Positions 4,674 through 60,359 of a DNA stretch of 64,000 nt are shown here, in pieces. Origin of the DNA: an uncultured Actinomycetes bacterium (GTDB taxonomy: Bacteria; Actinomycetota; Coriobacteriia; Coriobacteriales; Atopobiaceae). The translations under genes and the position numbers were made by a program. The notes beneath the pieces were generated by a model. The model ran no database searches. It was not told where the DNA came from and saw only the letters and a program-made list of their open reading frames with translations. The number at the start of each line of letters is the position of its first letter. Within the stretch, counting starts at the first letter, position 1. The stretch covers positions 1 through 64,000 of the forward strand of contig OMWE01000004.1 of the NCBI GenBank assembly GCA_900314685.1, given 5' to 3'.

Positions 4674-5540
4674 ATGACCATTAGTCTTTTCCAGGCGATT
4701 CTGCTGGGCCTGTTTGCCTGCCTGGCGTCCCTGCCCGGCATGGGTGGCACCACCATCGGTAACTACACCCTCGGTCGTCCTCTGGTCGGCGGTCTGATCG
4801 TCGGCATCATCATGGGCAACATGCAGCTCGGCATCATCGTGGGCGCCGCCATCCAGGTCGTCTACATCGCCCTCGTGACCCCCGGCGGCACCGTGTCCGC
4901 CGACGTCCGTGCCGTCACCTACATCGGCATCCCCCTGTCCATGCTGGCCATCCAGGCCCAGGGCCTCGACCCCACCTCCACTGAGGCCGCCAGCCTCGCC
5001 GCCGCTCTCGGCGCCGCCGTCGGTACCCTCGGCACCGTCCTCTTCTATGGCACCGCCACGATGAACCTGATCTGGCAGGGCATCGGCTGGAAGGCCATGG
5101 AGACCGGCAAGTGGGATCAGATCAAGAAGACCATCCCCATGGTCGAGACCGTCCTTCCCTGGGTCTCCCACATCTGCTTCTCCTTCATCCCCACCGTCAT
5201 CATCTGCCTGGCCGGCGCTCCTATGGTCGACCTCATGAAGACCTACCTGCCCATGGACGGCTACGCGATGAAGGTCCTCTTCACCGTCGGTTCGCTGCTT
5301 CCTGCCGTCGGCGTCGGCATCCTGTGCAAGCAGGTCATCACCAAGCCGCTCGACTGGGTCACCTTTGGCTTCGGCTTCATCCTCGCGGCCGTCATGGGCT
5401 GCAACCTGATCGCCTCCGCGGTCATCGCCGTGTTCTTTGCACTGATCAACTTTGAGCTTCAGTCCCTCAAGTCCGGCAAGCATGCCATCGCGGCTGCTTC
5501 CGCCGCCGACGTCGACGATGAGGAAGAGGAGGACATCTAA
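4674..5540 (+). CDS. PTS mannose-family EIIC membrane component
   Basis: 288 residues, highly hydrophobic, with PGMGGTTIGNYTLGRPLVGG near the N terminus, typical of EIIC-Man/ManY. Several membrane segments are visible (for example near residues 3-20, 38-65, 100-125, 160-190, 205-260). The tail ends in an acidic cluster (DVDDEEEEDI), echoing the acidic tail of EIIA. It forms the translocation path with EIID. Two bases separate its stop from the next start, which suggests translational coupling. Confidence 0.94.
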   Translation: MTISLFQAILLGLFACLASLPGMGGTTIGNYTLGRPLVGGLIVGIIMGNMQLGIIVGAAIQVVYIALVTPGGTVSADVRAVTYIGIPLSMLAIQAQGLDPTSTEAASLAAALGAAVGTLGTVLFYGTATMNLIWQGIGWKAMETGKWDQIKKTIPMVETVLPWVSHICFSFIPTVIICLAGAPMVDLMKTYLPMDGYAMKVLFTVGSLLPAVGVGILCKQVITKPLDWVTFGFGFILAAVMGCNLIASAVIAVFFALINFELQSLKSGKHAIAAASAADVDDEEEEDI

Positions 5541-58193: not shown

Positions 58194-58697
58194 CTAGAGC
58201 CGTGCGAGCATGGCGGAGCAACCGGCGAGGACATCGTCCAGGGTTACCTGGAAATTGTGCGTGTACCAGGGGTCGGCGACATCGCGGGGATGGTCGGTCC
58301 AGTCGAGCAGGAGCGATACCTTGTCTTCCGGGTCGGCTCGTCGGGCCTCCGCCTCGCTCACGGGGTCCCAGCTCCAGCCGTAGCCCCGCTCGCCCATGAG
58401 CAGCCGGTAGATGCCAGCAAGGTTCTCCGCGTCCATCCCCACGATGTAGTCAAACTCTCGGTAGTCGGCAGGTCCCATCTGGCGAGACCGATGGTGGCCG
58501 CAGGGGATGCCCGCCCTCTCCAGTGCACGACGCGTGCCGGGATGGACGTCGTTTCCCAGCTCCTCGCGGCTGGTGGCCGCCGAGTCGACCACAAACTCGT
58601 CGGCGCGCCCCGCCTGGCGCGCGAGGTCGGCAAAGACGAACTGGGCCATGGTGGACCGGCAGATGTTGCCGTGGCAGACGAAGAGGATGCTGGTCAT
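58194..58697 (-). CDS. Low-molecular-weight protein tyrosine phosphatase
   Basis: 167 residues. MTSILFVCHGNICRSTMAQF carries the P-loop CX5R (CHGNICRS) with nucleophile Cys at residue 8. DPWY with its general-acid Asp lies at about residue 142 (VADPWYTHNF). It removes phosphate from tyrosine, often of kinases that control polysaccharide export. The ATG at 58697 has GGAGACC upstream; long frames reading through to 59618 are not credible. Confidence 0.93.
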   Translation of the reverse strand: MTSILFVCHGNICRSTMAQFVFADLARQAGRADEFVVDSAATSREELGNDVHPGTRRALERAGIPCGHHRSRQMGPADYREFDYIVGMDAENLAGIYRLLMGERGYGWSWDPVSEAEARRADPEDKVSLLLDWTDHPRDVADPWYTHNFQVTLDDVLAGCSAMLARL

Positions 58698-58834
58698 GTG
58701 GTCTCCTATGCGCGAGCTATGCACCCTAATCGTATCGTTAGCCGCAGTCGAATCAAATTGCGGTTGTGACAGCGGCTGAGAATAGCCGAAAAAGACCAAT
58801 GCCATTATCCGCGCCGCGCGAATGCTCAGAAACA

Positions 58835-58924
58835 TTGGTGGTAAATGGTAGTCCATGGAAAAAGCTGATAGCAAATAGTAGTCAAACGGAAGCATTGGTA
58901 GATAATGGTGGCATAAATGTATGT
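58835..58924 (+). repeat. Three 30-nt direct repeats upstream of the AAA+ ATPase gene
   Basis: Units start at 58835, 58865 and 58895. They share a G-G-T-(A/G)-G-x-x-A-A-T-(A/G)-G-T-(A/G)-G core: GGTGGTAAATGGTAGTC, GATAGCAAATAGTAGTC and GGTAGATAATGGTGGC. The last ends 15 nt before the ATPase ATG. They are low in GC and sit like iterons or a multi-site operator directly over the promoter. Confidence 0.6.
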
Positions 58925-58938
58925 GCAGAGGAGGAGTT

Positions 58939-60096
58939 ATGGGACCGAACCCCTTTAAACCGACCGCAGGGAAGATGCCGCCTATCCTCATCGGCCGCCA
59001 AGCAGTCATCGACGACTTCACCGATGGCCTGCGTAACGGGGCGGGTGCGCCAGGCCGCCTGATGCTTGTCACAGGGCAAAGGGGCTTTGGTAAGACGGTT
59101 GTCCTTACCGAGCTGGGCAACGTTGCCCGAAAAGCCGGATGGGTGGAAGTAGCTGAAACCGCCTCCCCTGGCTTCGTTGGACGGCTTGTCGAGAGGCTTG
59201 CGGCAACAGCGCACAATGGAGCCCGCATTACTGCGAACCCACAGCTTACGGTCCCTATGGTCGGCAGCCTGAGCCTAGGGTCGGTTGAAATAGGCAATAC
59301 TGCTGCGCCCTCAACCCTTCGCGATGCAATCAACCATCGTCTCAAGCGCATGGACAAAGGACACGGCATCCTCATCACGCTGGATGAGGCGCAGGGAGCC
59401 GATATCGACGAGCTTGTGGCTCTGGGCACCGCCGTGCAGCACGTGATCCGCGACCAGGATGCCACAGGCCTTTCCGATACCGATAAGTGGGGAGTGGCGC
59501 TCGTCATCTCGGCTCTGCCATCAATGGTGGACGATCTCTTGGACCAGAAAGTCCTCACCTTCCTGCGCCGCGCCTTACGGGAGGATCTAGCCGAGGTCCC
59601 CGTACCCGACGTGCGCAACGCCTATCTGAAAACCGTGCGTGAAAACGGTGCGGAAATCTCTCTGGAGGACGCGCAAATGGCGGCCAAGGCATCTGGCGGC
59701 TACCCCTATATGGTGCAGCTTGTCGGGTACTACATGTGGCAGTCGGCCGATCGGAAGGGGGCTGACACGATTGAGACTGACGATGTCCGACAAGGCATAG
59801 AGGACGCTGGGATGGCCTTCGAAGAGGCCGTCTGTGCGCCAGCATTCAATCGTCTTACTGAGCCGCAGCGTCGTTTCGTGATCGCGATGGCGAAAGACTT
59901 GCCAAAGCCTTCAGCTCTGGTGGATGTTGCTGACAGGGCTGGTAGATCGCGCGGTTGGGCGGGAAAGTACCGTCTCAGTCTCATCCAGGAACATGTTATC
60001 CGTGCCGAGGGTCGCGGTTTGGTGGGGTATGCAATTCCTCATTTTGGCCCATACGTTCAGCGGCTGCTCTCAACTGGCGTCGTATCGCTGGATTAG
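58939..60096 (+). CDS. Solitary AAA+ ATPase (ORC/Cdc6-like, AAA_16 type)
   Basis: 385 residues from an ATG with GAGGAGG upstream. ILIGRQAVIDDFTDGL opens the AAA_16-type domain; TGQRGFGKTVVLTEL is the P-loop and GILITLDEAQG the Walker B. ASGGYPYMVQLVGYY marks sensor 2 in the lid. From about residue 320 a winged helix follows (GRSRGWAGKYRLSLIQEHVI). This is the layout of Orc1/Cdc6-like and related STAND-type ATPases. Its GC content and codon use look lower than its neighbours, suggesting transfer. The upstream 30-nt repeats would be natural binding sites. Function unknown. Confidence 0.8.
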   Translation: MGPNPFKPTAGKMPPILIGRQAVIDDFTDGLRNGAGAPGRLMLVTGQRGFGKTVVLTELGNVARKAGWVEVAETASPGFVGRLVERLAATAHNGARITANPQLTVPMVGSLSLGSVEIGNTAAPSTLRDAINHRLKRMDKGHGILITLDEAQGADIDELVALGTAVQHVIRDQDATGLSDTDKWGVALVISALPSMVDDLLDQKVLTFLRRALREDLAEVPVPDVRNAYLKTVRENGAEISLEDAQMAAKASGGYPYMVQLVGYYMWQSADRKGADTIETDDVRQGIEDAGMAFEEAVCAPAFNRLTEPQRRFVIAMAKDLPKPSALVDVADRAGRSRGWAGKYRLSLIQEHVIRAEGRGLVGYAIPHFGPYVQRLLSTGVVSLD

Positions 60097-60169: not shown

Positions 60170-60359
60170 GATCCAGACAGCCCAGGGCAGCCCGTAGGGG
60201 TTGCAAACATCTTGCGAAGCAGATCCGCCGAGGGGCACTTGCGGGAGCGAGGACTGTCTGAGGCCGTAAGGCCGAGTTCCGCAGCTGCAAGCGCCTCTCG
60301 GCGGATCGGGTGCGGAGCGTGTTTGCAACCCCTACGGGCCGCCCTGGGCTGTCCGGGTC
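60170..60359. repeat. Long hairpin element E2 between convergent ATPase and deoB genes
   Basis: Two arms of about 76 bases (60170-60249 and 60280-60359) are inverted copies with about 60 identical positions, including CCCGTAGGGGTTGCAAACA and GATCCGCCGAG. The apex (60253-60278) on the minus strand reads AACTCGGCC, TTAC, GGCCTCAGACAGT, the same as in elements at 18094 and 42238. CTTGC and GCAAG flank the apex at the same distances as in the 18094 copy. It ends 13 bases before the deoB stop. Confidence 0.88.

Follow-up and report, generated by a model that had tools for sequence, protein, structure and literature searches.

A lone bacterial AAA+ ATPase family, apparently with gene-specific rows of sites one DNA turn apart before each gene's own start

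The ATPase gene analyzed here belongs to a large bacterial family of lone genes, each of which apparently carries a gene-specific row of sites, one DNA turn apart, before its own start codon. The gene lies in a contig stretch of 64,000 nucleotides, hereafter the window; its features are given in Table 1. In the literature searched, a limited search, the family is apparently undescribed. We consider it likely that the gene forms an autoregulated single-gene module, whose ATPase assembles on a private array and so keeps the promoter of its own gene repressed. Recognition of the array by the protein encoded next to it is a well supported prediction, based on the covariation of protein and leader and on the uniqueness of the array to its own leader.

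Table 1. Features of the ATPase locus (window positions).
Feature	Position	Strand	Description and basis
Private array	58836..58915	+	Eight half-sites of 10 bp each, in strict register; consensus TGGTRGNNAA; sequence, periodicity
Sigma-70-like promoter match, inside the array	58879..58906	+	TAGTCA-16-GATAAT; only such match in the leader
Likely ribosome-binding site	58926..58936	+	AGAGGAGGAG; sequence
Solitary AAA+ ATPase with winged helix	58939..60096	+	385 aa, N-terminal signature GPNPFKPTAGKMPPILIGR
Walker A	59074..59097	+	GQRGFGKT, residues 46-53; GKT invariant in the 31-member alignment
Walker B	59371..59388	+	LITLDE, residues 145-150; DE invariant in the 31-member alignment
C-terminal winged helix-turn-helix	59854..60078	+	Residues about 306-380; AF2 secondary structure, H-H-H-strand-strand
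Putative recognition helix	59950-59988	+	Residues 338-350; AF2 secondary structure
Hairpin	60170-60359		80-nt arms, 81% complementary; dispersed genomic repeat

The only confident Pfam domain of the window protein is AAA_16 (E 1.3e-11), and its sequence has no match in NCBIfam, PADLOC, or PDB. Besides the Walker motifs, Arg211 is invariant across the 31-member family alignment. The AF2 model built from these 31 members (pLDDT 88) shows an AAA+ core followed by the winged helix, whose H-H-H-strand-strand elements span residues 308-364; this confirms the domain layout that an earlier note on this DNA had given for the gene. The top Foldseek matches of the model in PDB are archaeal Orc1/Cdc6 and ORC2 (for 2qby_A, E 7.5e-12, TM 0.54), the next ones being RuvB and two ATPases of archaea, 2fna and 2qen; of the PDB matches listed, 2qen has the largest query-normalised TM (0.64). 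The label "Orc/Cdc6-like" given in the earlier note is thus upheld by the structure search at the level of the fold; by sequence the window protein is not an Orc1/Cdc6, though its modelled fold is closest to the archaeal ones. A second in-frame ATG lies upstream of the ATPase start, at 58921. As also noted earlier, GC content is lower than in the neighbourhood, with 55-61% in the leader and ORF vs 64-67% in the flanks.

The units of the window array, 10 bp each, are TGGTGGTAAA/TGGTAGTCCA/TGGAAAAAGC/TGATAGCAAA/TAGTAGTCAA/ACGGAAGCAT/TGGTAGATAA/TGGTGGCATA, of which half-sites 3 and 6 are degenerate. What had been described as three 30-nt repeats before the ATPase gene are real repeats, but with a unit of 10 bp: since every third unit is degenerate, blocks of three turns are perceived. 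On its other side the array is bordered by a phosphatase gene (58194-58700) that is divergent from the ATPase gene; its last full unit stops about 23 nt 5' of the ATPase ATG, and this gap holds the likely ribosome-binding site, which leaves no promoter space between the array and the start codon. The sigma-70-like match is weak (one found vs 0.7 expected by chance in the leader), and Rfam gives no match. When the window leader is compared with 5000 dinucleotide shuffles, its summed lag-10/20/30 score is reached by 3 (p about 6e-4), and its best single lag by 50. The window array is moderately improbable by itself, and the decisive statistics are family-wide. Related arrays are seen at L013/L040, whose protein is 72% identical, and at L129, which has no ORF.

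Leader periodicity was assessed by ungapped self-match scores of non-redundant 160-nt leaders, compared with dinucleotide shuffles. For 88 leaders, the combined Z values at lags 10, 20, 30, and 40 are 73, 69, 41, and 27, respectively, and a second class of arrays has lags of 9/18 bp (Z 38/25); at most remaining lags Z is close to zero, and the leaders of 150 other genes, taken as controls, stay near background. At the single-gene level, 71% of 112 genes (<80% identical) score above the 99th percentile obtained from off-phase lags; the other 29%, including the window gene, fall below this strict threshold. Orthologues hence carry arrays, their lack of repeats being one of the two findings that the earlier note had named as speaking against its proposal. 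The median distance from the array end to the start codon is 34 nt. The arrays are AT-rich (GC about 35%) within GC-rich genomes; along the leaders, GC is 35-38% at -40 to -80 and about 60% beyond -200.

Half-site sequences usually differ between divergent copies, e.g., GGTATAAGTT x5 (L007), AACGAAGAAT/AACGAAAGAT (L206), TTATGCGTC x5 (L144), CTATAATTTG x5 (L110), and TTTTTGATA (L085), and leader similarity stays at background below about 50% protein identity. The motifs are not all fully separate, since some paralogues within a genome share related arrays, as do L002/L003. Selection for unlike arrays among paralogues of one genome was rejected, no divergence in excess of that given by protein identity being seen. 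The leaders of the Coriobacteriia/Bifidobacteriaceae set show no palindrome signal (combined Z 0.2), while some is present in those of more distant homologues from actinomycetes (combined Z 9.8), without obvious tandem arrays; own-leader recognition may therefore be older than the tandem layout. Individual palindromes near the start codon, not tandem arrays, are observed in the distant homologues L231, L233, L240, L243, and L247.

Whole-genome motif search covered four genomes. In G000, sites with 0-1 mismatch are confined to the own leader, and sites with 2 mismatches outside it are close in number to those of the backwards control. In G064, G074, and G004, every match with up to 3 mismatches is in the own leader, and the controls give zero. 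Given this confinement in the genomes tested, each gene apparently encodes a protein addressed mainly to itself. At the window locus of the sister genome G004, the ORF is absent and a recognisable array is retained beside the inverted phosphatase gene.

The best predictor of array similarity, controlling for the rest of the protein, is winged-helix identity. Covariation by single columns was noisy, and analysis by segments worked better. The partial rank correlation of segment 316-345 with leader similarity is 0.20 for all pairs, and 0.31 and 0.36 in narrower identity bands; ATPase segments mostly give values about 0 or negative, with the exception of 166-195 (up to 0.20). With one gene taken per >60% cluster, segment 331-360 has r 0.20 (95% range 0.10-0.30) and ranks first in 115 of 200 resamples, some signal also being seen for ATPase segments 181-210 and 76-105. 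In the model, residues 331-360 comprise the putative recognition helix and wing. The covariation is correlational, with modest r, and points to the protein's own DNA-binding domain as the candidate reader of the array; the tie between repeats and neighbouring protein, proposed earlier, is strengthened by it.

Coriobacteriia and Bifidobacteriaceae are the main hosts of the ATPase family, and the copy number in a genome ranges from 0 to 11. Within the same bacterial family, 87 of 140 genomes (62%) are positive, as are 46 of 296 genomes of the phylum at a stricter cut-off (E <= 1e-15). Named relatives occur in Olsenella, Collinsella, and Bifidobacterium, and more distant ones on plasmids of Rhodococcus, Arthrobacter, and others, one of them near parA/parB. 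The window genome has six copies, the other five being 27-35% identical to the window protein and located at unrelated loci. Several Bifidobacterium proteins are 51-56% identical to it, above these paralogues, a pattern that may reflect transfer between classes or else old duplications followed by loss. Among up to 216 loci compared, none of the neighbouring genes is conserved (the largest neighbour cluster touches 16), which confirms the absence of a partner gene reported in the earlier note, and the protein is under strong purifying selection (median dN/dS 0.07); of the two options left there, a single-gene system or a remnant, both observations favour the former. Constant membership of an unrelated well-known operon, the other finding that would have spoken against the proposal, is not seen, as the orthologues are not part of an operon.

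Phage origin of the family was rejected: a single one of 50,697 phage records has a match, and so do 14 viral contigs. The PHROGs family phrog_6841 (function unknown) matches 30 of the 31 members, and relatives are therefore present in a few phages. Family copies with a single in-frame stop are seen in G131, G133, G135, G099, G093, G087, and G066, suggesting frequent decay. The homologue at L252 (Bacillus subtilis plasmid CP123774) is annotated with a longer ORF and adjoins two genes, one for an AbiEii-type nucleotidyltransferase and one hypothetical.

In the autoregulated module that we propose, the AAA+ winged-helix protein would directly bind gene-specific 9-10-bp half-sites in its own leader. 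Since the half-sites are one turn apart, identical subunits would align along one DNA face, one per helical turn; the AAA+ core suggests that assembly is probably ATP-gated. The assembled protein would cover the promoter or 5' region and repress the gene: as the gap is only ~23 nt and the sole promoter-like match is inside the array, array occupancy would block the promoter or early transcription. A changed nucleotide or ligand state would release repression. Negative autoregulation appears to be the simplest reading; the array could also activate rather than repress. Of the elements of this scheme, data support the intact ATPase motifs, the helical phase, the own-leader restriction, the winged-helix covariation, and the solitary patchy distribution. 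A bolder version, to which we give a small but real chance, is that these genes form a new class addressed to themselves, in which the polymer on the private array, with one subunit per turn and dozens of separate reader/array pairs, is itself the functional state (a switch, an immune polymer, or a silencing complex), and not merely feedback.

Archaeal Orc1/Cdc6 and ORC2 as best structural matches, the presence in one genome of several paralogues beside gene-specific repeats, which parallels haloarchaea (PMC3528665), and plasmid-borne relatives, one near parA/parB, would all suit an origin-like element, in which every ATPase would act as initiator of replication with the array as its origin, as in haloarchaeal origins adjacent to orc/cdc6. 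Origin function is nevertheless unlikely, and we give this reading very little credence: low GC is restricted to the array region, so that there is no separate AT-rich unwinding zone beyond it; the sites form a direct 10-bp tandem, not spaced boxes; there are up to 11 copies per genome and the gene is frequently absent; the window has no sustained GC-skew switch; and the window protein matches no Orc1/Cdc6 model at E up to 1, TIGR02928 being reached at E <= 0.01 by only 3 of the 31 members. For the first and last of these reasons we do not follow the earlier note as far as it likens the gene to a replication initiator. That AT-rich low-complexity leaders merely mimic repeats has next to no probability: the AT-richness of arrays in GC-rich genomes would allow it, but neither dinucleotide-preserving shuffles nor off-phase lags give a comparable signal, the signal is restricted to lags near 9, 10, and multiples, and a related array survives without an ORF in L129. 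The family-wide periodicity test refutes such an artefact.

The ATPase might instead be a conventional SARP/OmpR-like regulator of other genes, acting via tandem 10-bp sites, with its own gene as one target. SARP proteins do sit next to each other on direct repeats of 11 bp (PMC10936776), and the array also faces the divergent phosphatase gene; however, in the four genomes searched the array is at the own leader only (weak single half-sites elsewhere would escape this search), and the phosphatase gene is no common target because neighbours are not conserved, which makes such a role improbable. Somewhat more room, though still on the doubtful side, should be left for a single-gene defence or stress ATPase of STAND-like type, with output by ATPase oligomerisation elsewhere in the cell and incidental autoregulation. 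Here, ATPase_2 (PF01637) is matched by 10 of 31 members and nSTAND_NTPase5 by 12 of 31, by the window protein neither; among the listed PDB matches, 2qen leads in query-normalised TM, and the distribution is patchy and multi-copy. Against it, there is no effector domain, the window protein has no PADLOC match and other members match generic ATPase models weakly (best mad8, 2.9e-6), and no defence neighbour recurs in up to 216 loci. This reading is compatible with the autoregulated module, as its output; as to what the protein may do apart from autoregulation, our leading guess, held tentatively, is a STAND-like accessory sensor for stress or defence.

In haloarchaea, several orc/cdc6 paralogues per genome each lie by their own gene-specific repeats, some having been acquired with new genomic content (PMC3528665); no other known system is closer in organisation. 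Like archaeal Orc1/Cdc6 with ORB repeats (PDB 2qby, 1w5t), the present family combines AAA+ with a C-terminal winged helix and has diverged paralogues by their own repeats; unlike them, the window sequence falls outside the Orc1/Cdc6 family, tandem 9-10-bp half-sites are directly 5' of the start codon, there is no distinct unwinding zone, and the bacterial gene is accessory and often absent. Archaeal ATPases of the ATPase_2/SSO1545/PABY2304 type (PF01637; PDB 2fna, 2qen) have a similar fold (TM up to 0.64), although the PF01637 match is weak in the 10 members and missing in the window protein; following a limited literature search, we know of no phased own-leader arrays for them. The closest DNA-site logic is that of SARP/AfsR of Streptomyces, with 11-bp direct repeats one helical turn apart and one winged-helix protomer per repeat (PMC10936776). 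An NTPase domain (NOD) is likewise part of AfsR; SARPs, however, use two 11-bp repeats at target promoters, whereas here a long 9-10-bp array is confined to the own gene. In SARPs, DNA is bound by an N-terminal domain of OmpR type, while the winged helix of the ATPase model is C-terminal, and no SARP/BTA model is among the Pfam results shown for the window protein and members. In plasmid iteron/initiator pairs, the gene of a RepA/RepE-type initiator is downstream of tandem repeats and autoregulated; gene position and proposed autoregulation are similar here, but the location is chromosomal and the fold is Orc-like AAA+.

An anonymous "ATP-binding protein", present in 62% of one family's genomes and on actinobacterial plasmids, thus becomes a testable protein–DNA system and a bacterial parallel to archaeal Orc1/Cdc6 genes beside their own repeats. 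The readers fall into 65 sequence clusters, most of which have arrays of their own; together they offer a natural library from which winged-helix recognition can be learned and separable repressors can be built.

The downstream hairpin, taken in the earlier note for the end of the element, is unrelated to the ATPase family. Over 120 bp it recurs with 97% identity at G000:C12:45144-45263, there are partial copies elsewhere, and it is not found beside other family genes examined; as a dispersed repeat absent from these loci, it is placed outside the ATPase system. At L129, the array at 5170-5260 (G004:C63) keeps its 10-bp register and adjoins the inverted low-molecular-weight phosphatase gene; it is apparently an orphan from gene loss. 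Inverted sets of roughly 21-bp sub-terminal repeats, seen by eye at 4895-4955 and 5085-5135 of L129 around AT-rich DNA, resemble a small transposon relic close to the inversion breakpoint.
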